A stretch of 38,307 bases of DNA from Planctomycetota bacterium (GTDB lineage Bacteria > Planctomycetota > Phycisphaerae > Sedimentisphaerales > Anaerobacaceae), in contig JADFMM010000025.1 in NCBI GenBank assembly GCA_022563885.1, positions 1 to 38,307 of the forward strand, given 5' to 3'. Positions within the stretch are counted from its first letter, which is position 1, and each line of letters opens with the position of its first letter. This document shows, piece after piece, positions 1-36,381 of the stretch. Under the pieces are notes generated by a model that saw nothing but the letters and a program-made list of their open reading frames with translations, was not told where the DNA came from and searched no databases. The translations under genes and the position numbers were made by a program.

Positions 1-285
1 CGGTTTTGGCTTGGTGCATTTCCCGGTCACATTCCCGATCGTTGTCGCTGTCGTAATCGTAATCGAAACAGTGAATAGGGGCAATTAGGGGTATCGATTA
101 CGACAACGACAAGCGCTACGCTGATTACGACCACGAGGAATGGTACACGGGCTGGCACCTAAGCGAGAACGATATTGAACCAAGCCGAAGTTTTGGGGGC
201 GAGTTCTACCCAAAAACCGCCCAATTTATGTTACACTTCCACCATGTTTTCGCTTTGGCCATATCCGAAGCAGAGGCCCCATGAT
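1..285. other. Intergenic lead-in with imperfect inverted repeat
   Basis: No gene is supported here. A TTG-initiated extension of the next reading frame runs back to 175, but it has no signal peptide and no ribosome binding site, so I leave it out. The stretch is rich in the word GATTACGA and its complement TCGTAATC. Positions 50-66 and 94-110 are complementary at 15 of 17 bases and could fold into a stem. Similar GATTAC/GTAATC words occur in other gaps of this window, so this may be a member of a dispersed intergenic repeat family and not a promoter element. Confidence 0.5.
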
Positions 286-2826: not shown

Positions 2827-4199
2827 TCGAGGTTCCCATTATGGCAAAACACCCCTCTTGTCGAGCACATTTGGCCCCCTCCATCGTCACGCGGTCGGCA
2901 CTGTCCCGGCGTAGATTTCTGCGGGGAGCCGGCGTCGCACTCACACTGCCACTCTTGGACGCCATGCGCCCTGCCTTCGCGGAGGTGGCAAAGTCCGGGG
3001 CCTCTCCCGAAGCGGCCGCGACGCCGCGTCGCATGTTCGCGATTTGCAACAACCTCGGTCTGCTGCCGGACGAGTTCTTTCCCACCACCGCCGGCCGAGA
3101 CTACCAGCTCTCCCCATATCTCGAGACACTGCAACGCCATCGCAACGACTTCACCGTGTTTAGCGGCGTCTGGCATCCCGATGTCGACGGCGGACACCCC
3201 GCGGATAACTGCTTTCTCACGGCCGCGCCCCACCCGGGCCGCGGCGGATTTCGCAACACCATCTCCCTCGATCAATACATCGGCGAACAGATTGGGCCGC
3301 TCACCCGCTTTCCCTCCTTGAGCCTGGGCGTCAACGTGCAAAAGGGCATGCGAAGTCTCTCGTGGACGCCGTCCGGCGTGCTGATCCCCTGCGAAGAGAG
3401 TGTCGCCGGCGTCTTCAAGCGGCTGTTCGTCCAGGGCACCCCGGAGGAGACCGCGGCGCAGCTCAGGAAGCTCAAGCTGGGTCACAGCATACTCGACGCC
3501 GTCGGCGGCCAGGCGAAGTCACTCCAGCGGGACATCGGTCCCCGTGACAGAGAACGACTCGATCAGTACTTCACCAGCGTCCGTGAACTCGAAAAGCGTA
3601 TGATCATGTCACGCGAGTGGGAACAGAAGGCAAAGCCCCGGGTCAGCGTACCCATGCCCCTCGACCCGGAGCATCCGAAGGCCTACATGGAGAAGGTCCG
3701 CCTCATGTATGACATGGCCCGGCTGGCCTTCGAGACCGACTCCACCCGATCCATCGCGCTGCTGCTCGACGGCGTAAATTCCCCGGCGATCGACGTCGAG
3801 GGCATCGAGATCACCGACGGCTATCACAACCTCTCACACCATGGCAAGAGAGAAAAGAAACTCGCGCAACTGCGTGCGATTGACCAATGGCACATGCGGC
3901 TCCTGGATGATCTGTTCACACAACTCAAAGCCGTGCAAGAGGACAACGACACCCTGCTGGACCGCACCATGATCCTGTACGGCACCAACCTCGGCAACGC
4001 GAACACGCACGTGACCACCAATCTTCCCACGCTCTTCGCCGGCGGCGGATTCAAGCATGGCCAACACCTGGCCTTCGACCGCGAGAACAACTACCCGCTT
4101 CCCAACCTCTTCGTCTCCATGCTCCAGCGCATGGGATTCGAAACCGATCGCTTCGCCTCCAGCACGGGGACGATGCGCGGGCTGGAGATGGTGGGGTGA
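2823..4199 (+). CDS. DUF1552 protein with Tat signal, partner of the upstream DUF1592 cytochrome
   Basis: A 458-residue protein of the DUF1552 family. The N-terminus carries a twin-arginine signal, [10 protein letters not shown] followed by [11 protein letters not shown], so it should leave the cytoplasm folded through the Tat system. The first ATG (2823) overlaps the TGA of the preceding gene. A second ATG at 2841 would shorten it by six residues and cannot be excluded. Family features include the ICNNLG segment after the signal and a C-terminal stretch [13 protein letters not shown] with LPTLFAGGG, recalling the alkaline-phosphatase/sulfatase-like fold of the DUF1501/DUF1552 group. DUF1592 and DUF1552 genes are usually neighbours in PVC genomes, and a second such pair lies at 19.6-24.4 kb. 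The biochemical role is not established. Confidence 0.9.
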
Positions 4200-8754: not shown

Positions 8755-10152
8755 ATGAAGACGTCCACTGAACGCAAGGCCTCCCTCATTCCCGACAATG
8801 TGTTGCTTGTTCTACTGGTCGTTCTCGTGCCCCGGTCTCTGCAGGCCGCCGAGTTGCCGAACATCGTCGTGTTCATCTCCGACGATTTGGGCCGGCTGGA
8901 GACATCGATTCACGGCTCGAAAGAGGTGCGGACCCCGACCATGGACAGGCTCGCTGCGGCCGGCATGACCTTTGACAACGCCTATGTGGCCTCGCCGAGT
9001 TGCTGTCCCAATCGCTATTCGTTGCTGACCGGCCTCATGCCGGCGCGGCACGGGGCCCACCCCAACCACAGCCAACCGAAGACGGGCACGCGTTTTCTCA
9101 TGCCCCTCTTGCAGGCCATGGGGTATCACATCGCCTCCTTCGGCAAGGTGGCCCACGGCCGGCGTGCCTTTGCGGGCTGTGACTACAACTCACCGCAAGC
9201 GCGAGAGATGTCCAAGCATGTGCGGGCTCACTTTGCAGACCAAGAGCGAGACGGACCCATTTGTCTCATGGTCGGTGACCGTCGCCCGCATGTGGCCTGG
9301 AGCAAGGAAAGCACCTATGATCCCCGGCGTGTGAGCCTGCCCTCTCATTTCATCGATACGCCGGAAACGCGCGAGCATTGGGCCCGCTACCTCACGGACA
9401 TTACCGGCATGGATGAAGAGCTGGGTCGGATCTACGACTTCGCCAAGAGACGATTCGGCGAGAACTTCATCTTCCTCTTCACCAGCGACCATGGAGGCCA
9501 ATGGCCCTTGGGCAAGTGGAATCTCTATGACTCCGGGACGCGTATCCCCCTTGTTGTCGTCTGGCCCGGCCATATCGTAGCGGGGCAGCGCACGGATGCC
9601 ATGGTGAGTTGGGTGGACATCCTGCCGACGCTCATCGACCTGGCGGGCGGCGATGCTCCCGGGGACATCGATGGTAAATCCTTCGCCCCCGTACTGCTGG
9701 GGAAGACAAAAGCGCACCGAGACAAGATTTTTACCACGCACACGGGGGACGGGGCGATGAATATTTTCCCCATCCGTAGCGTACGCATGGGCCAATACAA
9801 GTACATCCACAATCTACGGCCGGATGCCTGGCACACCAATCATTCCGACCGTCACCGAAAAGATGGCGCCGGCGCCTACTGGGATTCCTGGGACGAAGCC
9901 GCCAAATCCGACCCGCGCGCCGCTGCCATGGTCAAGCGCTACTACACTCGTCCGGAATTTGAACTGTTCGATTTGGACCGGGACCCCTTCGAACTCGACA
10001 ATCTGGCCGGGGACTCGGCTTACCAGAAGAAGCTTGCGAAACTGAGAAGCGCCCTGGCGAGCTGGACTACGTCCCAGGACGATGAGTTGCTCCCGCATAG
10101 AGATCCATACCTCACATCGGAACCTTTGCCCGACATGCGGCGTTCAAGATAA
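8755..10152 (+). CDS. Secreted formylglycine sulfatase (heparan-N-sulfatase-like group)
   Basis: A 465-residue arylsulfatase-superfamily enzyme exported by a Sec signal (VLLVLLVVLVPRSLQAAE). The start at 8755 has GGAGG eight bases upstream. Metal-binding aspartates lie in VFISDDLG. The sulfatase signature reads C83-C-P-N-R87-YSLL-TG, so C83 should be converted to formylglycine by a maturase encoded elsewhere. FGKVAHG, FTSDHGGQWPLGKWNLYD and the closing FELFDLDRDPFELDNLA are typical. The KWNLYDSGTRIPLVV segment resembles the sulfamidase-like branch (N-sulfoglucosamine sulfohydrolase), but substrate cannot be fixed from this. A DUF3179 lipoprotein gene follows after 67 bases. Confidence 0.88.
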   Translation: MKTSTERKASLIPDNVLLVLLVVLVPRSLQAAELPNIVVFISDDLGRLETSIHGSKEVRTPTMDRLAAAGMTFDNAYVASPSCCPNRYSLLTGLMPARHGAHPNHSQPKTGTRFLMPLLQAMGYHIASFGKVAHGRRAFAGCDYNSPQAREMSKHVRAHFADQERDGPICLMVGDRRPHVAWSKESTYDPRRVSLPSHFIDTPETREHWARYLTDITGMDEELGRIYDFAKRRFGENFIFLFTSDHGGQWPLGKWNLYDSGTRIPLVVVWPGHIVAGQRTDAMVSWVDILPTLIDLAGGDAPGDIDGKSFAPVLLGKTKAHRDKIFTTHTGDGAMNIFPIRSVRMGQYKYIHNLRPDAWHTNHSDRHRKDGAGAYWDSWDEAAKSDPRAAAMVKRYYTRPEFELFDLDRDPFELDNLAGDSAYQKKLAKLRSALASWTTSQDDELLPHRDPYLTSEPLPDMRRSR

Positions 10153-11098: not shown

Positions 11099-11292
11099 CG
11101 TTGGGGCAAGACAAGAACGCCTTAGTTAGGTAGTCCGCCACTGATCACTGATAGTTGTTTGGCCCTTGCACGGCCCGCTTCCATGGGTTAACCTTCCGGG
11201 CATGGCTTGCTCCCATCAGATTCTTTATCTCGGTCAAGAGGCCAATCTCCCCTTCAAGCCTCGGCCATCAAATTCAAAAGAGAAAGGCTAAG

Positions 11293-12699
11293 ATGGACAA
11301 ACCACGATTTTACCCAATGGCGTGTGTCTGTGTGGCGGCCTGTTGGGCATGTGGTAGCCTGCTGGCTCAATCGGACGCTTCGGGCAGTCGCAGCCCAGAG
11401 ACGCCGCCGAATATCATCATTGTCTTCGCCGACGATCAGGGATATCAGGATCTCGGTTGCTTCGGTTCGCCGAATATCAAGACGCCCAACATCGATCGAC
11501 TGGCTCGCGAGGGGATGCGCTTCACCAGTTTTTACTCGGCCTATTGCGTCTGCTCGGCCTCGCGCGCCGCGCTGATGACAGGATGCTATCAGCCCCGCCT
11601 CAACATGCCGGGCGTCCTCGGACCGCGGTCGAAGGTGGGCCTGCATCCCGATGAGGTGACCATCGCCGATCTGCTCAAGACCAAGGGCTACGCGACTATG
11701 TGCATCGGCAAGTGGCACCTGGGGGACAAGCCGGAAACGCTGCCCACGGCCCAGGGATTCGATCACTATTTCGGCTTGCCCTACAGCAATGACATGGCCC
11801 GCATCAAGGGCTGGGGCAACGGCCCCAAGGATCTCGACAAGATCTGGGCATTGAAGAAATGGGATGTCTACAAGAATGAACTCTACCGGGATGCCACTGT
11901 CGTGGAAGCGCCGGTCAATCAGGTGACTCTGACCGATCGTTATACGGAAGAGGCCGTCCAATTCATACTGAAGAACCGCGACAAACCCTTCTTCCTCTAC
12001 TTCCCGCAGACCATGGTCCATGTGCCGCTCTTTGTCTCGGACGATCGCTATGATCCGGACCCCAACCAGGCCTACCGCCTGACCATGGAACATGTCGATT
12101 GGTCCGTCGGTCAGATACTGGAGACGCTTGATGACCTGAATCTCGCCGACAACACCTGGATCGTCTACACCTCGGACAACGGTCCCTGGTTGAGCAAGAA
12201 ACACCATGGAGGCAGCGCCTTGCCTCTGCGTGCGGGCAAAGGAACGACCTACGATGGTGGGATGCGGGTGCCGAGTGTCATGCGTTGGCCCCAACGAATC
12301 CCGGCCGGCGCCACCTGCGACGAGGTAGCCAGCACGATCGATCTATTGCCGACCATCGCATCGATCGTCGGGGCGGCATTGCCCGACCATCCCATTGATG
12401 GCCTGGATATTGGAGCGCTGCTCAGTGATCCGACCCAACCCTCCCCGCACAGAGAAGCCGGTTTCTTCTACTACAAGAACAACAAGGTGGAAGCCGTTCG
12501 CCAGGGCAAGTGGAAGCTTCGCGTCGCGAGCAAAGAAGGAGTGGAACTCTACGACCTCGATGCAGACATCGGCGAGGCCATTAACCTGGCTGAGTCGCAC
12601 CCTGCGACGGTCGAAGAGCTTCGGGCACTGATTGCCCGCTATGATGCGGATCTAAAGGCCAATACTCGGCCGGTGTGGCGGGCGGCCAAACGGCAGTAA
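11293..12699 (+). CDS. Secreted arylsulfatase
   Basis: A 468-residue formylglycine sulfatase. ATG 11293 follows an AAAGG box and opens a signal peptide (ACVCVAACWACGSLLAQ); the extension to 11155 is not signal-like. The metal site is in IIVFADDQGYQDLGCFG. The activation motif reads C87-S-A-S-R91-AALM-TG, so the middle residue is alanine rather than proline, an allowed variant. GKWHLGD, YTSDNGPW, HHGGSALPLRAGKGTTYDG and the C-terminal KLRVASKEGVELYDLDADI match the arylsulfatase A / GALNS-like branch common in PVC bacteria. Likely substrates are sulfated polysaccharides. It differs clearly in branch from the sulfatase at 8.7 kb, so the two probably act on different sulfate positions. Confidence 0.9.
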   Translation: MDKPRFYPMACVCVAACWACGSLLAQSDASGSRSPETPPNIIIVFADDQGYQDLGCFGSPNIKTPNIDRLAREGMRFTSFYSAYCVCSASRAALMTGCYQPRLNMPGVLGPRSKVGLHPDEVTIADLLKTKGYATMCIGKWHLGDKPETLPTAQGFDHYFGLPYSNDMARIKGWGNGPKDLDKIWALKKWDVYKNELYRDATVVEAPVNQVTLTDRYTEEAVQFILKNRDKPFFLYFPQTMVHVPLFVSDDRYDPDPNQAYRLTMEHVDWSVGQILETLDDLNLADNTWIVYTSDNGPWLSKKHHGGSALPLRAGKGTTYDGGMRVPSVMRWPQRIPAGATCDEVASTIDLLPTIASIVGAALPDHPIDGLDIGALLSDPTQPSPHREAGFFYYKNNKVEAVRQGKWKLRVASKEGVELYDLDADIGEAINLAESHPATVEELRALIARYDADLKANTRPVWRAAKRQ

Positions 12700-19209: not shown

Positions 19210-19625
19210 AGAGATTCGTTTGGGGTAACCGTCACAGGGATACTGTCCGCATTTCCTGGTTCGAGCTTCGCTAGAATTGTATATTCCACCGGAAGGATTG
19301 AAGGGCACGAAGGGCTGCCGCCAATTTGCAACTGCCATCTGCCACAATTAGGATCGTTGGCATCGGCGTCAGCCCTTCCCTATCTTCATTTTCTTCCCGT
19401 GCAATTATCCTTTGAGCGAAGCTCAAATTATGGCAATTTTGTTTTCCTGTAAACGCCTATGCGTTTCGTTTGGGTATTCTACCCTCAGCGTCAAAATGCA
19501 ATCTGATCCTACCTGGCTCCAGTGGTTTTCCCGCTTGATTTGCCAGCGATCGGGGGATAGAATTGGCCTTTTTAGGTACGTAATCAAGATTCATCTCATT
19601 TTGCCCGTACTGGTCAGTGTAAGTG
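19210..19625. other. Intergenic region with hairpin and promoter candidate
   Basis: No gene is supported. A perfect small hairpin lies at 19411-19427, where TTTGAGC and GCTCAAA pair around GAA, followed by a T-rich but interrupted stretch; it could end the upstream transcript. A promoter candidate lies at 19535-19563. A 76-codon frame at 19412-19642 is not recognisable and overlaps the promoter and the next start. Confidence 0.4.
19535..19563 (+). promoter_or_regulatory. Candidate sigma-70-like promoter
   Basis: TTGATT (19535-19540) and TAGAAT (19558-19563) are separated by exactly 17 bases, matching four of six and five of six consensus positions. Transcription would start near 19570, giving a leader of about 55 bases before the DUF1592 start. 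This is consensus matching only, and planctomycete promoters are poorly defined. Confidence 0.35.
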
Positions 19626-22600
19626 ATGATTTCTTTCTCTAGAAATTCCAGACATGACTGTGGGCGCCTTTCGGTGTTCTCTCTTTCCTCTCCCCCCGGT
19701 GATTCGGGTCTCTTCTGCTTGAAGCCGTGCCGTTTGTGGGCCGCGTCGTGGGCAGGGCTGTGTTTTATCTCAGTGTTCGCGGCGTCGGGTCTGGGTACTC
19801 AGTCCCTTGAAATGGAAGGCTCCTTCGACCAGCGTGCCGTTCCCCTCTTCGAGCAATTCTGTTTCAAGTGCCACTCGAGCAAGGGGGCAAAGGGCGACAT
19901 CAACCTGGAATCGCTGGCCGGGAGTGCCCAGTTCGCCGCTGATTTTGGTTCCTGGGAGTTGGTGGTGGCGGCACTGAAGGAAAAGCAAATGCCTCCCGAG
20001 GATGAGCCACAGCCCAGTGGCGTACAGCGTCGGCAACTGGTTCAGCTGCTTGAGGATGCACTGCGGCACACGGTCCAAGAGCAGGCAGGGGATCCCGGCC
20101 GGGTCGTTCTTCGTCGACTGACCAGCGCCGAGTATGCCTATACGATTGAAGATCTCACGGGCTTGAAGCTGGGATTGGAGAAGACCTTCCTCGGCGAAGC
20201 CGTCGGCGGAGAAGGGTTTTCCAATGTCGGTGACGTCCAGTTTATCCAGGATTCGGCGATCGAAAGGTTTCTCGATGCTGCCAAAACAGTGGCATCGCAT
20301 GCGCTGATCGGCGCCGGGCCGATCCAGTTCTACCAGGATCCGGGAAAGACGGGCCAGGAGCTTTCGGCGATCCATCGAATCAAGCGGATCTATCGCGCCC
20401 ATGGTTTCCGGACCGGGGCGGGGGAGGGGGCTGAGGCCTTCGGATTGGAGATGTACCCGAAGGCATTTTACGCCGCGTGGCGCTATCGCTATCGCAATCT
20501 GTTGGGCGAGGAGGACATGACGCTGGCGCAGCTGGCCCATGGCGAAGGCATCTCACCTCACTTCCTCGAACACATCTGGTCCGTCCTCGGTGATGACTTG
20601 CTCTTGTTCCCCGGCCGAGAGGTTGTGGAGGCGTGGCGGGCTCTTCCAGCGCCAAGCGCGAGAGCGCTCCTAACTGAGAAAACTGAGAAACAGGTTCGTG
20701 CCGCGTGCCAGGAGATCTATGTGCTGCTCGCCGGATGGCAACGCGCTCTCGCCGCCAACTCGAAGGACGACGAAGAGGCGCCGGTGTTGAGCGAGGGCGC
20801 TTTCCGACCGACTGTGAATCATGAGTTCAGGGTGCGGGTGAATTGGCCGCGTGATGCGACGGTCGCCTCAATCGAACTCTCCGTCATTCCGGCGGGTGGC
20901 GAGGACAGTCTCAGGCCGGCCATCCTGTGGAAGCAGCCGCGGGTCTTCATGCGATCGGCTCGAAGCGCCGACGACGCAGAAGAAAGGCGTCGGCCGTCGC
21001 CGAAACCCTTAAGAGAAATCGTCTCCGAAGAAACGGCTCGGCGCATGCGGTTCGGGCAGGGCCCGGAGGGATCGAGCATCGAGCCCAACGATTTCATGAC
21101 CGTCGGCGCCGTGACCCTGGCGATCGAGTTTCCCGTGCCGGCCGGCTCGCGCGGTGCGACTCTGGTGGTAGACGCTCAGCTTGATGTTGAAAGGGGCGAC
21201 GATTGTCTGGTCCGATGTGTGATCTCAGACGGCATCGTGGAAGGCGAGACCGTGGCATCGACGGGGGCGTCCTCGGCGCTGCTGGCGAACCCGGAGGGAC
21301 CGCAAATCGATTCGTGGAGGTCGGGCGTCGCCAAGCTGGTGCGGACGCTTCCTCAGGTCTCGCACCGAGAGGCGGCGCCTTCGGATCGCGATCCGATTCC
21401 GCTGCCCTTCGACAACACCTACAACACTCCCGAGCGGAATGCTTTTCACTACATCATCAAGTATCATCGCGACGACGCCTTTCTCACCGAGCATATTCTC
21501 GACGAGGCCACCCGCGATCGGCTCGATCAGGCCTGGACGGATCTGTTGACCGCGTTCGACTATCACGACACCTTCCTGGGTTTCATCGCCAAGAAGTTCG
21601 AGTTTGATCTGGAAGGTCGTAGTGTGGAAACGATCGACGGAGGCTTTGTCGACGGGCTGCCGGATGAAGCGCGGGAATTCGTGCGGCACGTCCTCGAAGA
21701 GTATAGAATGTCCAAGCGCCGCTTGCACGCCGTCCAGCCCAGTCATCTGGACGATGCGGTCGGTTTCGCACGGCAGGCATGGCGGCGACCGTTGAGCCAA
21801 AGGGAGGAGACCCGGCTGAGGTCATTCTATGCGTCCGTCCGCCGGGACCAAGAACTGGGTCACGCGGATGCGATGCGGGCCTTGCTGGCCCGCATCCTGG
21901 TCGCCCCCGCCTTTCTGTACCGGTTGGAGAACCCGCCCGAGGCCGCCGGCATGGTCGCGCTCTCCGATTGGGAACTCGCCAGCCGACTGAGCTATTTCCT
22001 GTGGTCTTCGAAGCCGGATGCGGAACTTCAGCGCGCTGCTGCGGCCGGCGAACTGCGAGACCCGGATCAACTCGCCCTGCAGGTGCGGCGTATGCTGCGC
22101 CATCCGAAGGCCCGCCGTCTGGCGGTGGAGTTCTTCGGTCAGTGGTTCGGGTTCTATCGCTTCGACGAATTCCGCGGGATTGACACGGAGCGCTTCACCG
22201 AATTCAACGATGAATTGAAATCGGCCCTGTACGACGAGGCGATCTCCTTCTTTGAATACATTGTCCGGGAAGGTCGGCCCATCGACGAAGTCCTCTTTGC
22301 CGATTACACCTTCCTGAACGAGCGACTCGCCCGGCACTATGGCATCGAACGGGACTCCGTGTCGGGTAGCGCAGTGGAGCGCGTCGATAACATAGGCCGG
22401 TTCAAACGGGGCGGTGTGCTGCGGCTCGGCGCCATTCTGGCCACGACCTCCGCTCCCCTGCGCACCAGCGCGGTCAAGCGGGGCGATTGGATTACCCGCC
22501 GGGTCCTGGGGACCCCCGTTCCACCGCCCCCCGGCGATGCGGGTTTCATCCCGGCCGATGATGTCCTTGACGATGGCTTGACCGTTCGTGAAAGATTGGA

Positions 22601-23045
22601 GGCCCATCGCAGCGATGCAACCTGCGTCAACTGCCATGCGCGGATCGATCCCCTGGGGTTTGCCTTGGAACACTTCGATCCGCTGGGCCGTTGGCGGGCC
22701 ACCTACCGGGACGGACGGGCCATCGACACGACCGGCGTGCTCAACACCGGCAGGGAGATTTCCGGTCTGGACGACCTGCGTGACTATCTGAAGGAGCAGG
22801 CAGCGTCGTTTCACCGCACCCTCTGTGTGAAGTTACTCGGATACGCATTGGGCCGTGGGGTATTGATTTCCGATCGGCCTCTGTTGGATCAGATGGTGGC
22901 AAGTGTCGTGTCGGACTCACGGTTTTCGAATCTCGTCGAACAGGTCGTCACCAGCACACAATTCCGCAACCAGCGTGGCCGAGATGCCGATTCCCGTGAC
23001 GCCGGCGCGGGTGACGTGGCGTCGTTATTAAGAGGCACAGAATGA
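19626..23045 (+). CDS. Large DUF1592-family multi-domain c-type cytochrome
   Basis: A 1139-residue relative of the protein at 0.3 kb. ATG 19626 is the likely start (GTG 19623 is adjacent); no strong binding site is visible. A hydrophobic stretch, [21 protein letters not shown], should act as signal. The domain order is PSCyt1 with C79-F-K-C82-H83 and [10 protein letters not shown], then DUF1587 ([18 protein letters not shown]). A long insert follows at about 200-600 ([18 protein letters not shown] and beta-rich sequence). Then come DUF1595 ([17 protein letters not shown]), DUF1592 ([17 protein letters not shown]), DUF1588 with [15 protein letters not shown] and C1000-V-N-C1003-H1004, and DUF1585. 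The insert makes it about 290 residues longer than the other copy. Its stop overlaps the DUF1552 start (ATGA), as in the first pair. Confidence 0.9.
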
Positions 23046-24418
23046 TGACATCAGCGGAAGGTTCTCAAGCCGATTTCCCCCTCTCCCGTCGAGGTTTTCT
23101 GCGCGGCGCTGCAGGCGTTTCCCTCACCCTGCCCTGGCTCGAATCGGTGCCGCTGCGCGGTGCAGATGCCGGAAGACCCTTGTCGAAGGGTGAACCGGAA
23201 AGGCCGCCGGTGCGATTTGCCTGCCTCTATTTTTCCAACGGCGTCGAACCCATTCATTGGTGGGCCAAGAAGAGGGGAGAGAAAACGGAAGTCGGTCCCG
23301 GACTGCAGCCCGTGCAGCCCTACCTCGATGACATCATCTTTCTGCGGGGCCTGTATAACGAGCAGGCCGCGCTCCATCAAAGCGTGCACCTTGGGCGCAT
23401 TCCCAATCTTCTCTCGGGCGCCTGGGTCAGCACGCGGCAAAGCGATATCCGGGTCGGCAGGACCATGGATCAAGTGCTGGCTCAGCAGATCGGAGACCAG
23501 ACGCCCGTTCCCAGTCTCATCCTGGGGATCGAGCCGACGGAGCTTCGTCTCGAGGATGGACTGTCCATGCTTTACGGTTCCTGCATCTCCTGGGCCTCCG
23601 AGACCAAGCCCGCGATGAAGGAGATCTATCCGGCGCGGGTCTTCGATCTGCTGATAGGCGACGGCACCGGGCGACGGCTCGACCGCAGCATCCTGGACCA
23701 GGTGTTGACCGATGCCAAGGATCTGCGTAGCAAGATCGCCACGGGCGACCAGCGGAAACTCGACGATTATCTAGAATCGATTCGCGACGTCGAGAAACGC
23801 ATCGAGCATGCGTCTCGCGAAGAACGGCTGGAGGGGTGGCGCCCCTCGCTGACCCGCCCCAATATGACCCGCCCCGCGGATAAGCTGCCTCAGAATATTC
23901 CGGAACATATGAAGTTGATGCTGGACCTCATCGTCCTCGCCTTCCAGATGGACAAGACGCGTGTTGTCACCTGCATGTTGAACAACGATCTCTCGCAGAT
24001 GAATTTCGGTTTTCTGGAAGGGGTCCGAGGCAGCCTCCATCTCGATCTGACGCACAACGGCCGCGATCCCGAACTCGAAGCGATGTACCTGAAGACGAAT
24101 CAGTTCCACACGCAGCAGTTCGCCTACCTCATCGACCGTATGAAGCAAATCGACGAAGGGGCAGGCTCGCTCCTGGACAATTCCATGCTCCTCTTCTGCT
24201 CAAACCTCTTCGACGGCGACCGCCATCAGGCCGATCACATGCCCATGTTGCTCGCCGGACGAGGCGGAGGAACCCTGAAAACGGGACGCATCCTAGACTA
24301 CATGGATAAAGGCGACGACAACCGCCGCGCCTGCAGCCTCTATCTCTCGCTCATGGATCGAATGGGAGTGAACTTACCGCAATTCGGTGACGCCGACCGA
24401 CGCCTGGTCGAGCTTTAA
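23042..24418 (+). CDS. DUF1552 protein with Tat signal, second copy
   Basis: A 458-residue protein, the same length as the copy at 2.8 kb but clearly diverged. The N-terminus has the twin-arginine motif [11 protein letters not shown] followed by [13 protein letters not shown] 23042 overlaps the preceding TGA. Family landmarks include [76 protein letters not shown] and the C-terminal [30 protein letters not shown]. It is expected to work with the DUF1592 cytochrome it overlaps, one partner exported unfolded by Sec and the other folded by Tat. Its molecular activity is not known. Confidence 0.9.
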
Positions 24419-24574: not shown

Positions 24575-26881
24575 ATGAAGACTGGATTACCACGAGACTT
24601 GCTACGGATAGGATTGATGATCGTCGTGGGCGTGGCAGGAATCGCCTCGGCGGCTGACAAGACCGGTGCTCGGGTCGCTCGGGTCGCTCCCCTAACCCTG
24701 GAACTCGGGCCTTATGTTCGATATGTCACGCCGACGAGTGCCGAGGTCCATTGGCGCACACGCCAGGCGTGCCCATCCGTTGTCGAGTATGGGCGGGCGG
24801 GACCCGGTGCAAAGCATTCACCGAGCATCGAATTGTCGCTGCAGCACCAGGGTGAAAACAAGCGGCGTTTGACGGATCTCCGGCCCAAGAAGCTCCATGT
24901 CATGACGCTCACCGGCCTGCTGCCCCACGAGGTGTATGCCTACCGGGTGGGGAGTGACGCCCAGGGACAAGGATGGCTGACACCCGTGTATGAATTGGAT
25001 ACCGCTTTGAATTACGCGGTGCCCCCATTGCAGACTGAGGGGACTCCCTTTGCGAATGACACGTTAAATCCGCAGGTACAGGCATTGGCCCGCCAGATCC
25101 TCGCCATGACCGGACTGAGCAAGGGATATTGTCTCGTGTGGGGAATCGCCGACGGGCAGTTGGCCTATGAATTGGCCCGCAACAGCCAATTGATCGTCGT
25201 TGGCGTGGATGCCGACAGGGACCGCGTCTCAAGGGTGAGAAACATCTTGTATCAGGCAGGCGTGTACGGCGAACGCATCACCCTGCATCATGTCTCCAGT
25301 TGGGCAGACGTTCCTTTTCCCAGTCACTTTGCCAATTTGATCGTCTCCGAACGTGCCTTCGCGAATGAAGGCTGTCCCGGCGATGCCCGTGACATGGTTC
25401 GGCTGCTGCAACCGAAGTACGGGACCGCGGTGTTGAGCCGCCGGACCCAGGGGGTAGACCGAATTGGATCTTGGCTGGAAGCCGCATCCTTTGATTTTCT
25501 GGAAGAACAGGACGCCAGGTTTGTCCACTACCGATTCACGAAGCCGCCGCTGCCGGGTACCGGTTCCTGGACCCACCAATATGGCGATGCGGGCAACAGT
25601 GCCAACAGTCATGAGAGTCTGAATGGCGTTTCGGCGACGGGTGAGTTGCAGGTCCAGTGGCTGGGTCACCCGGGGGCCGATTTCGGCATTGATCGCAACC
25701 CGCGTATGCCCGCCCCCCTCGCAGTCAGCGGCAAACTCTTCCACCAGGGCATGAATCGCATGGTGGCCATCGATTCCTACAATGGCGCGATTCTCTGGTC
25801 CTTGGAGATTCCAGATTTGCGGAGGGTCAACTTACCCAGAGATGCCAGCAACTGGTGCGCAGATTCGTCGTCCCTCTATGTTGCAGTTAAAGACAGATGC
25901 TGGGTGCTCGACCACGACCACGGAGACCTCAGACACGTTTTTGCTGTCCCACCAGGCCAAACGGGTGAGGCCTACGACTGGGGCTACGTGGCGCGGGCGG
26001 GCGAGGTATTATTGGGGAGTCAAGTCAAGCCCGGCATGGCCTATACCGGCTTTTGGGGCAAGTTGACCTGGTACGACAAGGCCCGTGGCGCGGGGGCCGG
26101 GAAAGTCTGCAGCGATGGGCTCTTTGGCTATGATGTCGCTTCCAAGAGCCTGCTTTGGAAATACCAGAGAGGCGTCATCATTAATACCACCATTGCGGCG
26201 CAAGAGAATCGATGCTATTTCATCGAGTCCCGAAACAGCGCGCTAAGTCGACAGAAAGACCGCCGGCTGAATGATCCCGATCTTTGGGCCGACCAATTCC
26301 TCGTGTCTCTCGACACCCAGACTGGAGCGATCCAGTGGGAAGTCCCTATTGACACGGCTGATGGAACAATCGTCTTTTTTCTCTCCTGTACAGACCGAAC
26401 GATCGTGGTTGCCTCCTCGGCTGAGGGAAAGTACCACCTCTATGGATTCGAATGCGCCACGGGAAAAATGGCGTGGCAGCAATCCCACAAGTGGACCAGC
26501 GACAACCACAGTGGGCATATGCAGCATCCGGTTCTCTTCGACAAGCGGGTCTACCTGGAGCCCTGCGGCTATGATCTCCTTTCGGGTGAATTGCTCACTT
26601 CCAGTGTGGGACGACACGAGGGGTGTGCGACTTACTGTGGCGTCGGCAATGCCCTTCTGTATCGTGGCGAGTCGCGGCGAATCTCCCTTTGGGATATGGA
26701 GGAGGACAAGGTGTCGAGCTGGTATAATCTCCGTCCCAGTTGTTGGCTCAGTGCCATTGCCGCCGACGGGATGGTGCTGTTGCCCGAAGGCGGTGGTGGC
26801 TGTAGCTGTGGCAATTGGCTGGAGACGTCTCTGGCCTTGCTTCCTGTGAACTCTGTTGGGCCTGCCCAACAAGGGCAGTAG
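24575..26881 (+). CDS. Exported fusion: FN3-like, methyltransferase-like and PQQ-like beta-propeller
   Basis: A 768-residue protein with AAGGA about eight bases before ATG 24575 and a Sec signal (GLMIVVGVAGIASA). Residues about 45-145 form a fibronectin-III-like domain of the purple-acid-phosphatase N-terminal type: GPYVRYVTPTSAEVHWRT, VVEYG, LTGLLPHEVYAYRV. Residues about 160-325 look like a class I SAM-methyltransferase fold: CLVWGIADGQLAYELA, IVVGVDADRDRVSRVRNIL, ITLHHVS, FANLIVSE, LLQPKYGTAVLS. The cofactor loop usually written GCGxGxLA is changed to GIADGQLA, so catalysis is doubtful. From about 390 on there are PQQ/BamB-like blades (LYHLYG..G..W type), ending in the cysteine motif C743-S-C745. 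An exported methyltransferase-like domain on a propeller is unusual. It heads a run of related genes; the next starts after 16 bases. Confidence 0.78.
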   Translation: MKTGLPRDLLRIGLMIVVGVAGIASAADKTGARVARVAPLTLELGPYVRYVTPTSAEVHWRTRQACPSVVEYGRAGPGAKHSPSIELSLQHQGENKRRLTDLRPKKLHVMTLTGLLPHEVYAYRVGSDAQGQGWLTPVYELDTALNYAVPPLQTEGTPFANDTLNPQVQALARQILAMTGLSKGYCLVWGIADGQLAYELARNSQLIVVGVDADRDRVSRVRNILYQAGVYGERITLHHVSSWADVPFPSHFANLIVSERAFANEGCPGDARDMVRLLQPKYGTAVLSRRTQGVDRIGSWLEAASFDFLEEQDARFVHYRFTKPPLPGTGSWTHQYGDAGNSANSHESLNGVSATGELQVQWLGHPGADFGIDRNPRMPAPLAVSGKLFHQGMNRMVAIDSYNGAILWSLEIPDLRRVNLPRDASNWCADSSSLYVAVKDRCWVLDHDHGDLRHVFAVPPGQTGEAYDWGYVARAGEVLLGSQVKPGMAYTGFWGKLTWYDKARGAGAGKVCSDGLFGYDVASKSLLWKYQRGVIINTTIAAQENRCYFIESRNSALSRQKDRRLNDPDLWADQFLVSLDTQTGAIQWEVPIDTADGTIVFFLSCTDRTIVVASSAEGKYHLYGFECATGKMAWQQSHKWTSDNHSGHMQHPVLFDKRVYLEPCGYDLLSGELLTSSVGRHEGCATYCGVGNALLYRGESRRISLWDMEEDKVSSWYNLRPSCWLSAIAADGMVLLPEGGGGCSCGNWLETSLALLPVNSVGPAQQGQ

Positions 26882-28836: not shown

Positions 28837-31830
28837 ATGGTCAGCAAAAAAGGGTACCAGTCTCGTGTGGGTTGTATGTTCTTGGTTCTTGTCAGCGCCG
28901 CGTGGGGGGCGGATGATTCCGCGGTGAAATTCAGGACTACCCTAGACAGGCTCGATATCAAACGAGATATCTGCGTGGTCCTAGGAATGCCGCCGACGGA
29001 ACTGCGACCTTCCCTGCTCGATTTTATCCTCGAAAGAGAGTTGACCGTCTATTTCCAGTCACCCGATAGGGATGAAACGAACACCCTGCGCGAAGCAGCC
29101 GATAGGCGGGGGCTTCTCGGCACACGTATTTTCGTTGAAGAGGGAGATTGGAAGTCCATTGGCCTGGCCACCAACCTTGCGGGCTTGGTGCTGGTTTCGG
29201 CATCTGCCCAGGACAGAGTCACAGACGAAGAACTGCTGCGCGTAGTACACCCCGGAGGCAAGATCATCACGGGTCTCAGAGAGATCACCAAGGCGCGCCC
29301 AAGCGATACCGACAGTTGGAGTCATCCCCATCATGGCCCGGACAATAATCCCCAATCCACCGATCAACGGGCACGCGCGCCCTACCTGACGCAGTTTTTG
29401 GCCGATCCGTTGTTCTGTCCCATGCCGGAAGTCTCGGTGGCCGCCGGAGGCAGGGTCTTTCGGGCCTTCGGGCACATTGCCCACAAGGCCAATCAGAACG
29501 CCATGCTGAATACCTTGATAGGTGTCAACGCGTACAACGGCATGATCCTCTGGCAGCGCAAACTGCAAGAGGGATTCATGATTCATCGCAACACCATGAT
29601 CGCGACACCGGAAACCCTGTACATGGCGGACGCCGAATCCTGTAAGCTGATTGACACGGCAACCGGGAACGTCAAGGGCAGCATCGTCATTCCACCGGGA
29701 GTCGCGGATGGACAGGTGTGGAAGTGGATGGCCATGGAAGAGGGCATACTTTATGCCCTGATTGGAGGGGATGAGGCCTCTATTGAAACGCAGCCCTCGA
29801 ACAGACCGGGCTTGGGCCACTGGCCCTGGGGCATGTGGCAGGGGCACGACTACAAAGATCCCCAGACAAACTTCGGATCAGGACGGACCTTCGTCGCCAT
29901 CGATCCCGGTACCGGTAAGATTCTCTGGAAGTACACAAGTGAAGACTATTGGGACAGTCGAGGCGTCTGCATGAAGGACGGACGGATCTACTGCTACAGT
30001 CCCGAAAAACACCTTGCCTGTCTAGACACCCAAAAGCGAGAGTTGGTCTGGCAAAACTCTGATGCCGATCTCCTCGAGGCGATTGGCAAGCATGGACGCG
30101 CTCAACACTATTTCACCGGCTACGCCACAACCGCCTACATGAAGTGTAACGATGACTACATCTTCTTCGCCGGCCCGCAACGCGATCGGCTCGTGGTGGC
30201 CAGCGCCGAGAATGGATGCCTCCTCTGGCAGAAGCAGGGGGGCAATCTTCAGTTGGTATTGAGGGAGGACGGAGTCTACGCCGCAGGCCCCAAGGGAGCG
30301 GGCGCCATATACGCCTATGAAACCGGAGAGGTCATCGCCCAACTGCCCAATCGTCGCGCCTGCACCCGGGCGACCGGGAGTATCGATAGCGTCTTCTTCA
30401 GAACGCCGGGCGGGACCGTGCGCCTCGATACGGCTTCCAACACGGCACAGCACATCGCGCCGATGCGTCCTCCCTGCCAGGACGGCGTGATCATTTCCGA
30501 CGGACACCTCTACTGGGGTCCCTGGATGTGTGGTTGCCAGTTGTCTCTCTACGGTCACATAGCGCTGGCGCCAGCCGAGAACTTCGATTTTCGACCGGCC
30601 GTGGACGATGCCAGACTGGAGAGGGGCCCAGGTGACGTCGAGTCGGTAGCAGATTTCAACATCGACGCCACAGATTGGACCACCTATCTCGGTAATAACC
30701 AACGCATGCCCCAGACAGACATCACCATTCCGCGCCATGTAGAATTGAAGTGGCAATTTGATTCGTCTACCGCCATGCCGACTGCCCCGGTGGTGGCAGG
30801 CAATACGGTGTTTGTCTGCGATCGCAAGGGTGTGGTCCAGGCGATCGACGCCCAGGGGCAAGAGATATGGAAGGCCTTCACAGGTGGGGCCATCTACTTT
30901 CCGCCGGTTGTCGCACAGGGGAGGGTTTATGTCGGCTCCGCAGACGGGTGGGTGTATGCATTGGAGGCCAAAACGGGGAGACGCTTGTGGCGTTTTAGGG
31001 TCGGCCCTTCGGCGCGTCGGATTCCCGTCTATGGAAAACTCATCTCCACCTGGCCGGTAGCGGGGGGCGTGGTCGTGCAGGATGGCGTGGTATTCGCTGC
31101 CGCGGGCATTGCCCATTACGACGGCACCTATGTCGTTGCTCTGGATGCAGTGACAGGGAAAGTCAAGTGGTATAACGACACATCGGGGACCCTCTCCGAA
31201 AAGGTCAATAGTGGTATCAGTTTGCAGGGCCACCTGTGGATACAAGATAACGAACTCCGTTTCACCGGGGGCGGCGTCTATGAAATGGCCCGCTATGCCT
31301 TGGATACCGGCAAGTGTCTCAACACGCCCCACGAGGGACTCAACTCTAAGTTTCACACCGCGTTTTATGCCTATTTTCCGGAGTACGGGCAATATCCGTC
31401 ACTCCACTATGGATACCCCGACGGCAATCTCCTTCAGTACAATCCGAGCTACGAAGGGAGCCGGCACAGCACCCTGGCGCTCAAGGGACCGATCCTAAAA
31501 TCGGCCGCGAACCAGGCCAAGCCCACAGGGCTTTCGGATCGCCCCAGGGACGGAGCCAGAAGAGCGCCTCAGCGCAACACGCTCTGGCAGGAGGAGCCCG
31601 GCATCCGTTACAAGGGATTTGTAGTGACTTCCGATGTCCTGCTCGCCGCAACCGTCACGAGCACAGACGGCGGGGTCGCCTCCTCCTTGGTGGCGATTCA
31701 GATCGAGGATGGCAAGACGATTTGGCGCCAGGAGTTGCCTGCCCCCGTGGTCAAGGGCGGCATTGCTGTGGACAGCCAGGCACGCATTGTGGTGGCTCTA
31801 GAGAACGGACAAGTTGTTTGTCTGCAGTGA
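28837..31830 (+). CDS. Exported methyltransferase-like domain plus double PQQ-like propeller
   Basis: A 997-residue protein with AAAGGAG before ATG 28837 and a short signal (VGCMFLVLVSAAWGADD). Residues about 45-150 follow the layout of the methyltransferase-like domain at 24.6 kb but are more decayed: ICVVLGMPPTELRPSLLDFI, LTVYFQSPDRDETNTLREAA, GLLGTRIFVEEG, LATNLAGLVLVSA, VVHPGGKIITGL. The glycine-rich SAM loop is gone. A first propeller follows at about 185-590 (IGVNAYNGMILWQRKL, GTGKILWKYTSEDYWDSRG), ending in C565-G-C567. A second propeller at about 615-997 has GRVYVGSADGWVYALEAKTG and the signature RRIPVYGKLISTWP, shared with the 26.9-kb protein. It looks like a composite of the two upstream genes and is the likely core of the cluster. 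Substrate and cofactor are unknown. Confidence 0.78.
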   Translation: MVSKKGYQSRVGCMFLVLVSAAWGADDSAVKFRTTLDRLDIKRDICVVLGMPPTELRPSLLDFILERELTVYFQSPDRDETNTLREAADRRGLLGTRIFVEEGDWKSIGLATNLAGLVLVSASAQDRVTDEELLRVVHPGGKIITGLREITKARPSDTDSWSHPHHGPDNNPQSTDQRARAPYLTQFLADPLFCPMPEVSVAAGGRVFRAFGHIAHKANQNAMLNTLIGVNAYNGMILWQRKLQEGFMIHRNTMIATPETLYMADAESCKLIDTATGNVKGSIVIPPGVADGQVWKWMAMEEGILYALIGGDEASIETQPSNRPGLGHWPWGMWQGHDYKDPQTNFGSGRTFVAIDPGTGKILWKYTSEDYWDSRGVCMKDGRIYCYSPEKHLACLDTQKRELVWQNSDADLLEAIGKHGRAQHYFTGYATTAYMKCNDDYIFFAGPQRDRLVVASAENGCLLWQKQGGNLQLVLREDGVYAAGPKGAGAIYAYETGEVIAQLPNRRACTRATGSIDSVFFRTPGGTVRLDTASNTAQHIAPMRPPCQDGVIISDGHLYWGPWMCGCQLSLYGHIALAPAENFDFRPAVDDARLERGPGDVESVADFNIDATDWTTYLGNNQRMPQTDITIPRHVELKWQFDSSTAMPTAPVVAGNTVFVCDRKGVVQAIDAQGQEIWKAFTGGAIYFPPVVAQGRVYVGSADGWVYALEAKTGRRLWRFRVGPSARRIPVYGKLISTWPVAGGVVVQDGVVFAAAGIAHYDGTYVVALDAVTGKVKWYNDTSGTLSEKVNSGISLQGHLWIQDNELRFTGGGVYEMARYALDTGKCLNTPHEGLNSKFHTAFYAYFPEYGQYPSLHYGYPDGNLLQYNPSYEGSRHSTLALKGPILKSAANQAKPTGLSDRPRDGARRAPQRNTLWQEEPGIRYKGFVVTSDVLLAATVTSTDGGVASSLVAIQIEDGKTIWRQELPAPVVKGGIAVDSQARIVVALENGQVVCLQ

Positions 31831-32091: not shown

Positions 32092-32844
32092 ATGGACAAG
32101 AACCTCGACATCATCACCTATGCCGTTTCGTTAATCATCAAGGCGGCCATTATGGCCTCGCGATTCTCAGGCAGGGCTCGTAAGCGAAGCCTCAAACGCC
32201 TTGCAACCATGGACGGCGACACCAAAGACAAGGAATGCCTCTTCCTAAAAGACAAGGTCTATCTGCTCGAAATGCAGGTCTCTATTTTTCAGAAGCGAAT
32301 CAAATAGCAGCAGAAAAAGCCCCGCTACACCATGCGGGAACGGTTGTTCATACTCTGGCATATGTCTGTAACTCCACTGGAAGGACCCAGGACTGGATGG
32401 ATCAATAATGCCCTGGAAAGTGCCATTGAAACGCATGGAGCACCCAAACACATTGTCTCAGACCAGGTAAGGGTCTATACGGGAGAGGTCTTTGCGAAAT
32501 TGCTGGAGCAACGGAACATAAAGGCACGTCTGGGAGTTCTAGGAAAAAATGGACCCATTTCAGTCACAGAGAGAGTGATCAAAACCTTAAAATATGAATG
32601 GCTCAAACGTGTGCCGATCATCAAGGACTTTGACCATCTAACCGAGCTGTGTCGTGAGTTTGAGAGCTTGTGTAATACGTGGCGCCCTCACATGGGTTTG
32701 GAAGGCTTTCGGCCTGGTGATGTCTATAACCAAGGAAAGCCAATGAAACCTGATCGTAACTCGAAATCGGTTCCGAGCAATATCGAACGACATCTGTTCC
32801 GCGAGACAAGAGTCACTGGGTATCGCCTGAAAAGTGTTGCCTAG
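32092..32844 (+). pseudogene. Integrase-core (DDE) transposase remnant
   Basis: Two pieces lie in one frame. The first (32092-32307) ends at an in-frame TAG; the frame resumes as QQKKPRYTMRERLFILWHM, the usual start of this transposase type. It then jumps to the second half of the catalytic core: PLEGPRTGWINNALESAIE, HGAPKHIVSDQVRVYTGEVF, ISVTERVIKTLKYEWLKRVP and a closing NTWRPHMGLEGFRPGDVY. The second aspartate (SDQ) and the glutamate (TERVIKTLKYE) of the D-D-E triad are present, but the part carrying the first aspartate is missing. So an internal deletion as well as a stop has killed it. The element ends at the inverted repeats around it. Confidence 0.8.
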
Positions 32845-34688: not shown

Positions 34689-35444
34689 ATGACAAAAATA
34701 AACCAGCTAATCAGCCAATGGCCAGCAGGCTCCTTGATGACGGCCGTGTATCTTCAGAAACGAGGAATCAGTCCTGCTCTGCGCCGGAGATATGTGGATA
34801 GCAACTGGCTGGAATCCGTGGGCCGGGGCGCTTATAAGCGCCCCGGCGATTCGGTGGACTGGCTGGGGGGAGTTCATACGCTGCAAACGCAACTAAAGAT
34901 GACAGTCCATCCCGGTGGGAAGACAGCCCTGGCCCTCAAGGGATCCTCGCACTTCGTTCCTCTCGGACCGGCCGGAGCCTTCCTCTTTGGGAAACGGGGG
35001 GACCGTCTGCCTAAGTGGTTCACGGAATACCATTGGCCTGAGAAGGTCTTGTACAAACCAACCGCACTATTTGAGGGTGATCTGTCAAAGTATATGACGG
35101 ACCACAAACACAAGGAACTGGGTATCAGGATAGCGAGTCGGGAGTTGGCTTTCCTGGAGATGTTGTACCACCTGCCGGCAAGACAGGGGTTCATGGAAGC
35201 GTTCTCTATCATGGAGAATCTTGCCACTCTACGACCCAAAGTCGTACAAAAGCTCCTGGAAATGTGTCGGTCGGTAAAGGTGAAGCGACTCTTTCTATTC
35301 TTGGCCCAAAGAGCCGAGCATCCATGGTTCAAAAAGCTAAACACAGCCGATCTTGATCTGGGTAAGGGGAAACGCATGATCATCAAGCATGGTGTGCTGG
35401 ACAAAACATATGCGATCACCGTCCCCAAGGAACTGACCGGATGA
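34689..35444 (+). CDS. abiEi: AbiEi-family type IV antitoxin and autorepressor
   Basis: A 251-residue protein of the AbiEi_3 type. The N-terminal part, INQLISQWPAGSLMTAVYLQ, then RGISPALRRRYVDSNWLE and VGRGAYKRPGDSVDW, is the winged-helix DNA-binding region. The rest (GGKTALALKGSSHFVPLG, REKAFLEMLYHLP-like, MENLATLRPKVVQKLLEMC) is the C-terminal antitoxin domain. Family members repress their own operon and neutralise the nucleotidyltransferase toxin without direct contact. The stop overlaps an ATG at 35441 that would be the natural toxin start. The gene is intact and complete. Confidence 0.9.
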   Translation: MTKINQLISQWPAGSLMTAVYLQKRGISPALRRRYVDSNWLESVGRGAYKRPGDSVDWLGGVHTLQTQLKMTVHPGGKTALALKGSSHFVPLGPAGAFLFGKRGDRLPKWFTEYHWPEKVLYKPTALFEGDLSKYMTDHKHKELGIRIASRELAFLEMLYHLPARQGFMEAFSIMENLATLRPKVVQKLLEMCRSVKVKRLFLFLAQRAEHPWFKKLNTADLDLGKGKRMIIKHGVLDKTYAITVPKELTG

Positions 35445-36381
35445 AGGACTCGCCTTTCTTTAAACGGCTGCACTACTGCTCGAAGTGTTACCTTTCATCG
35501 CCAAGCACGAGGTCTTCGCGCTCAAGGGCGGCACGGCGATCAATTTCTTCGTGCGTGACCTACCCCGCTTCTCTGTAGACATAGATCTCACCTACGTACC
35601 CATTACGGATCGTCAGGCCGCCTTGGTCGACATCACTCAACGCCTGAAACAGATCAAGCAGGATCTGGAGAAATTCGCCACATCGGTCGTCCCCAAGTCA
35701 TTGGGTGACACAGACTACTGGAAAGGTCTCGTGGTAACACGACCAGATGCCACCATCAAAATCGAGCCGAACCTGATCATCCGTGGAACGGTCTTTCCGC
35801 CTGAACAGCGAGACTTGTGCCCTAGCGTGGAAGACGCTTTCGAGTGTGCCGTGGATATGCTCTGCCTATCGCAGGCTGATCTATTTGGCGGCAAGATTTG
35901 CGCGGACTTGGATAGGCAGCACCCTCGCGATCTCTATGATGTTCGGCTCCTGTTGCAGGAAGAGGGTTTTGGTGACGATATTCGCAAGGCCTTCGTCGTT
36001 TACCTGATAAGTCACAGTCGCCCCATGGTCGAATTGCTCGATCCACGAAGACAGGATCTGCAACGACTATACGATCAGGAATTCGTCGGCATGGCTTCGG
36101 AACCCGTCCTACTAGAGGAGCTGTTGAAAACACGGGAGGAGCTGGTTGATCTCATCCGGAATCAGCTCACCTTTGATGAAAAACGATTCCTACTCTCCAT
36201 CAAAGAAGGTGAACCGGACTGGGACCTGCTCGGTACCAACGGCATTGCCGATCTTCCCGCTGTCCAATGGAAGCTCCTCAACATCCGCAGAGTGGATCCC
36301 GCGGATCATCGCCAAGCCGTGAGTAAGCTCAAGGCCCTGGGACTACAGAGCGACCCCTTACTCACCACACCCCACGCCTGA
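35441..36381 (+). pseudogene. abiEii: AbiEii-family nucleotidyltransferase toxin, frameshifted near its start
   Basis: The main frame (from GTG 35485, 298 residues) carries the AbiEii nucleotidyltransferase motif LKGGTAINFF...SVDIDLTY, with the G15-G16 and D32-x-D34 pairs. It also has a conserved later block, ADLFGGKICADLDRQHPRDL followed by YDVRLLL, and a C-terminal helical region. The family start MKDSPFFK is encoded from ATG 35441, overlapping the antitoxin stop, but in another frame; the main frame has TAA at 35461. Adding one G at the CGG of 35465-35467 would restore MKDSPFFKRAALLLEVLPFI, so a single-base loss, or a sequencing error, is likely. If real, the toxin loses about 15 residues or is dead. 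Translation from GTG 35485 remains possible, without a clear binding site. Confidence 0.75.

Follow-up and report, generated by a model that had tools for sequence, protein, structure and literature searches.

A four-cysteine signature at the end of PQQ-like propellers encoded in a planctomycete locus and in related bacteria

Two propeller proteins and their gene neighbourhood

The DNA analysed here (the window) is a stretch of 38,307 nucleotides from a Planctomycetota bacterium, and the propeller genes described below all lie on its + strand. P0001 (24575..26881, 768 amino acids), recognised as an open reading frame with 38 related loci, encodes a propeller protein with four conserved cysteines, and P0002 (28837..31830, 997 amino acids), recognised from its reading frame and domains, encodes a second protein of this type in which a BamB-like propeller is fused after the four-cysteine propeller. 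The gene next to P0001, P0003 (26898..28328, counted from the first ATG), encodes a BamB-like propeller (Pfam PQQ_2, 61.9 bits). P0001 and P0002 are homologous over about 600 residues at 20% identity (BLASTP, E 8e-13), a stretch that comprises a Rossmann-like domain and the propeller.

P0001 begins with a putative signal peptide (residues 1-27, 24575..24655, read by eye), followed by an FN3-like (Pur_ac_phosph_N) domain (residues 52-140, 24728..24994; Pfam PF16656, 36.2 bits against a cut-off of 30), a Rossmann/methyltransferase-like domain (approximately residues 166-323, 25070..25543), predicted from the structural model and from its Foldseek matches to methyltransferases, and an eight-bladed propeller (residues 327-759, 25553..26851), assigned from the AlphaFold2 model, fold matches and PQQ_2. 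The four-cysteine propeller of P0002 spans residues 156-581 (29302..30579), as judged from a profile match and a weaker model. Rossmann-like profile matches precede the propeller in 142 of the 147 family ORFs with enough room for them. Judging from the N-termini as read by eye, both P0001 and P0002 are probably exported.

The AlphaFold2 model of P0001, built from 39 sequences, has a mean pLDDT of 81.6 and a pTM of 0.86, and its strands read as eight four-stranded blades, the last of which is closed by the N-terminal strand. For P0002 the model is weaker (mean pLDDT 60.7), and the order of strands and cysteines is repeated in it.

The P0001 clade counts 38 loci, three of them on contigs too short for the downstream gene to be assessed; the other 35 all have a P0003-like gene downstream in the same orientation. 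Of the 178 scorable ORFs of the family (see below), 114 have a BamB-like propeller in frame with the four-cysteine propeller, 61 before it and 53, as in P0002, after it; the 64 without a fused second propeller comprise 23 that begin at a sequence edge, and the rest belong mostly to the P0001 clade. Because they are fused or linked in this way, the four-cysteine propeller and the BamB-like propeller probably work together. The four-cysteine set is absent from the 38 P0003-type sequences inspected, where one column is Cys in 37 sequences and four more in 20-25.

No recognised redox enzyme was seen among the flanking genes common to at least three loci. At 23 of the 38 loci, some of them cut by the 4-kb flank, the P0003-like gene is followed on the same strand by a gene whose product carries, after a probable signal peptide, the motif C-x-[VL]-P-V-F-R-Y-A-L-E-R-W (L016-L047 and, in the window's own genome, L096 on contig C93). 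In this VPVFRYALERW gene, of which the first V may be L, one Cys is invariant (24 of 24 rows), and all 23 rows that reach the C-x-C contain it. In the window's own genome it is followed by a MacB/FtsX-type permease-like gene (L078, by eye). We regard the VPVFRYALERW gene as a lead and not as part of the module considered below.

Elsewhere in the window, two copies of a gene pair (175-4199 and 19623-24418) were recognised, the second by Pfam and the first by eye, in which a gene for a large PSCyt/DUF1592-type protein precedes one for a DUF1552-type protein. Also read by eye were two sulfatase-like ORFs (8755-10152 and 11155-12699) separated by a further ORF, an adjacent ORF pair resembling an AbiEi/AbiEii toxin-antitoxin system (34689-36381) and, just downstream of P0002, a short transposase/integrase-like ORF (32332-32844).

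The shared C-x-C motif and the four-cysteine signature

Both P0001 and P0002 contain exactly one C-x-C, located in GGGCSCGNWLETSLALLP (P0001 residues 740-757, nucleotides 26792-26845) and in PWMCGCQLSLYGHIALAP (P0002 residues 562-579, nucleotides 30520-30573), respectively. The initial annotation had given the motif as 26795-26812, which holds GGCSCG alone and is narrower than the P0001 motif stretch. It had also proposed that the motif occupies an equivalent place at the end of a propeller in both proteins, and this is borne out, as the BLASTP alignment itself overlays the two motifs and as both the P0001 model and the weaker one of P0002 put the motif in the last blade, between its strands B and C. 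With a Cys frequency of 1.9% in the domain, the chance of a C-x-C falling no more than 3 columns from a given position is about 0.003. The conservation of the motif in 176 of the 178 scored relatives far exceeds this expectation, and a chance origin of the shared motif was rejected on both grounds.

The same alignment pairs two further cysteines of P0001 with cysteines of P0002, so that the corresponding sets are C684, C723, C743 and C745 in P0001 and C509, C547, C565 and C567 in P0002. C684 (26624..26626) lies in loop D6-A7 of the model and C723 (26741..26743) in loop D7-A8, and both are Cys without exception, in the 33 representatives that reach the region and in the 178 scored ORFs. C743-S-C745 (26801..26809, the two Cys codons starting at 26801 and 26807) lies in loop B8-C8. 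In P0002, the BLASTP and family alignments place the equivalents at 30361..30363 (C509, equivalent to C684), 30475..30477 (C547, equivalent to C723) and 30529..30537 (C565-G-C567, equivalent to C743-x-C745).

The family was assembled from 248 loci, which yielded 205 non-redundant ORFs; 178 of these were scored and 27 were unscorable, being cut-off members or other propellers. All four cysteines are kept in 176 of the 178 scored ORFs, with some bias toward retention possible as the search queries contained the cysteines, and the same number match the spacing C-x33-43-C-x17-20-C-x-C at the end of the eight-bladed propeller. With the two additions from genome G009 described below, the resulting 180 ORFs form 170, 116 and 53 clusters at 95%, 60% and 40% identity, respectively. 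Of 47 aligned family sequences, 45 reach the region, and in these the columns of C684, C723 and C743 are Cys in 45/45, while the C745 column is non-Cys in four rows as a result of gap shifts, the C-x-C itself being intact there. Among 34 representatives with less than 60% mutual identity (median pair identity 28%), 33 extend this far and give the same picture, with Cys throughout in the columns of C684, C723 and C743 and in 30 rows in that of C745, where the departures come from gap placement and the C-x-C is present. Only Trp, Gly and Cys columns are fully invariant among the 34 representatives, and an Arg or Lys precedes the second Cys by three residues in 175 of 176 ORFs.

The cysteines proposed in the initial annotation are therefore conserved in homologs. 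Its view of the motif as a unit of two cysteines captured a real and conserved C-x-C but missed two members of the set, as the family alignments conserve four. The two-cysteine reading was rejected for this reason. C428 and C512 were likewise rejected as members of the site, not being conserved in distant relatives, and so was C442, whose column is Cys in 26 of 34 representatives but which lies on strand C2. Apart from the conserved set, the 34 propeller domains hold 2-9 cysteines each, an odd number in 17 of them, without a bias toward even numbers.

In propellers, the D-A and B-C loops usually share one face. Since all four cysteines lie in loops of these kinds in the model, they would be placed together on one face of the propeller. 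The near-invariant R374, in loop D8-A1, and R697, the last residue of strand B7 in the model, would lie on the same side. Although residues 741-747, the C-x-C loop, belong to the most conserved stretches, their pLDDT is below 50.

Two of the 178 scored ORFs, both from genome G009, keep the equivalents of C684 and C723 and have no C-x-C. A search of 23 genomes of G009's family added two further G009 paralogs in the same state, and the four (L189, L190, L256 and L259) form one clade with a support of 0.999, so that the C-x-C was lost in a single evolutionary event. In L189 and L190, additional cysteines lie between the two that were retained. The reverse case, a C-x-C without the other two cysteines, occurs in none of the 178 scored ORFs. 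Because the G009 clade lost the C-x-C and retained the other two, this one event in the sequences weakly suggests that the four cysteines behave as two pairs and not as one indivisible site with four ligands.

One relative of P0001, at 96% identity (L010), comes from a Planctomycetota bacterium, and other family loci come from Phycisphaerae, Rhodopirellula, Opitutia, Verrucomicrobiales and Lentisphaerales. At E 1e-10, matches to the family profile were obtained in 46 of the 246 genomes from the window's phylum and in 12 of the 115 from that of G200 (the Verrucomicrobiales genome that holds L024); in seven of these 12 the matches are partial, reach no further than profile position 381 and may represent ordinary propellers. 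Within the window's own genome, 12 genes bear the four-cysteine signature, not counting a few unrelated reading frames that also fit the search pattern. This genome also holds two four-cysteine propeller genes split over two frames (L006 and L007, on contigs C52 and C96), which are either broken genes or assembly errors, and a 297-residue ORF (L096, contig C93) with a Rossmann-like part and a propeller start that lacks the signature and resembles an internally deleted paralog.

Possible chemistry of the site

The redox setting was surveyed in ten hand-picked carrier genomes. DsbD_TM was found in all ten, a DSBA-family protein in three and VKOR in one, the window's own, which has both VKOR and a DSBA-family protein; DsbB was found in none of the ten. 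The same searches on 14 known genomes, used as controls, were positive for DsbD_TM in 10, for DSBA in 8, for VKOR in 3 and for DsbB in 6. Disulfide oxidases of other kinds are possible in the carrier genomes. DsbD_TM also covers the CcdA-like transporters of cytochrome c maturation, and for this reason its presence does not imply that reductant is delivered to the propellers.

The reading that we favour, with a probability of roughly 0.42, is a thiol/disulfide site made of two pairs with a reactive C-x-C, as suggested by the conserved sequence and the structural model. A probably exported eight-bladed PQQ-like propeller would carry the four-cysteine site at blades 7 and 8, with C684 and C723 forming one pair across the adjacent blades and C743-x-C745 forming the second, an exposed and reactive dithiol or disulfide, as measured for some other C-x-C motifs. 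Such a site could perform thiol-disulfide exchange with a partner or substrate, for which DsbD-type transporters could supply the electrons.

Close behind comes the possibility, to which we give a somewhat lower chance, that the four cysteines bind one Zn, Cu or Fe on the loop face, in a structural or catalytic role. Four nearly invariant cysteines at a fixed spacing, a C-x-C and neighbouring loops in the model would all fit a metal-thiolate site, the Arg or Lys before the second Cys could balance the charge of the cluster, and the scarcity of recognised disulfide oxidases in the ten carrier genomes points the same way. An obligatory four-cysteine metal site is nevertheless made somewhat less likely by the G009 clade, whose four members keep only two of the cysteines; in addition, the AlphaFold2 placement of the C-x-C loop is of low confidence, and an all-thiolate metal site is less usual in exported proteins, to which this family probably belongs. 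That probable export, read by eye, instead suits permanent structural disulfides, in which two bonds would hold blades 7 and 8 together with the closing loop in place and have no chemical role. The position of the cysteines at the ring-closing blade, their pair-wise loss in the G009 clade, the VKOR and DSBA-family protein of the window's own genome and the cysteine-rich cross-linked proteins for which planctomycete envelopes are known also speak for such bonds. We nonetheless consider them unlikely: the rarity of VKOR and the absence of DsbB among the carrier genomes tested make them somewhat less likely, the cysteines are better conserved than most of the fold, the C-x-C loop has a low pLDDT, and the varying number of other cysteines per domain does not favour even counts. 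The initial annotation had offered metal binding or a structural disulfide for the C-x-C; its metal alternative thus survives as a four-cysteine site, ranked second, and its structural disulfide now ranks well below.

Less probable still is another role, such as binding a cofactor or substrate covalently or making a thiol-dependent protein-protein contact, although invariant Arg residues near the same loops and an obligate-looking second propeller would both suit a binding interface. Heme attachment was rejected, as CxxCH is absent at the motif (by eye).

If the redox-active two-pair site is combined with the genomic context, one may picture a thiol-redox (or metal-thiolate) module, so far unrecognised, that would act outside the cytoplasm in Planctomycetota and Verrucomicrobiota, in which paired propellers would carry a four-cysteine active site with a C-x-C at the closing blade, receive electrons from DsbD-type transporters and be represented by a dozen paralogs in one genome; as a whole, we hold this picture to be doubtful. 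The four-cysteine site, being better conserved than most of the fold, offers a testable handle on function, and its signature separates these propellers from others. Redox activity of the site would make the propeller an addition to the types of thiol chemistry known outside the cytoplasm, and metal binding would mean a site new to a very common fold.

Comparison with known systems

Pfam and NCBIfam scans of the 34 representatives returned general propeller-type models only (PQQ-like and BamB-like). PQQ_2 (PF13360) matches 34 of 34 at E 0.001 or better, and its gathering threshold of 27.6 bits is exceeded by P0001 (28.3), P0002 (129.5) and P0003 (61.9). The more specific models stay below their cut-offs: BamB TIGR03300 (equivalog cut-off 285.2 bits) gives 88.6 for P0002 and 44.3 for P0003, TIGR03075 (PQQ-dependent alcohol dehydrogenase, subfamily cut-off 480.05 bits) gives 65.1 and 19.2, P0001 being unlisted for both, and TIGR04528 (acido-empty-quinoprotein group A, subfamily cut-off 650 bits) gives 26.1, 57.7 and 25.6 for P0001, P0002 and P0003, respectively. 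A literature search, with most subscription journals outside its scope, returned no recognisable description of a four-cysteine propeller family.

The best 50 matches listed by VIA-align 2 for the P0001 and P0002 models are propellers only, and for P0001 they include Rv3035 (Z 28.8), YxaL (27.6) and BamB (25.2). BamB and PQQ_2 propellers are eight-bladed too, and BamB chains align with P0001 residues 354-757 at Z of about 24-25. Among solved chains, the four-cysteine stretch found no match by sequence in 51 PDB sequences, whose best stretches end at or before profile position 343, whereas the four cysteines occupy profile positions 351, 388, 408 and 410. Tetrathionate hydrolase of Acidithiobacillus ferrooxidans (6l8a, 7cqy) ranks first both in the Foldseek search with the P0001 model (E 9.7e-18) and in the comparison of the family profile with PDB sequences (E 2.4e-17), at about 15% identity. 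It shares with the family a W-T-H-x-Y start, worth only 2.6 bits, but its profile match stops short of the four cysteines.

PQQ-dependent dehydrogenases are eight-bladed as well and have a vicinal Cys-Cys disulfide near the PQQ cofactor. This feature is absent here, since the conserved set is C, C and C-x-C with none adjacent, and the identity of a PQQ enzyme was rejected because the scores are far below the family cut-offs.

Two systems from the literature bear on the proposed chemistry. In DsbI, a disulfide-forming membrane protein of Campylobacter and Helicobacter with a periplasmic beta-propeller, the CXXC is carried not by the propeller but by a loop that the DsbB-like membrane part exposes to the periplasm (PMC4460558). 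CsgC of curli biogenesis has an invariant CxC that joins the BC loop to strand C, with a reduction potential of -139 mV, next to a quoted value of -167 mV for a CGC tripeptide (PMC3173608). The C-x-C of P0001 is similarly situated between strands B and C, but CsgC has an immunoglobulin-like fold, not a propeller, and serves as an analogy only. The redox role of CsgC's own CxC has reportedly been questioned later. Among these systems, the fold of the present family is a known one, that of PQQ-like and BamB-like propellers, and the four-cysteine site on it appears, from the sequences compared, to be new.
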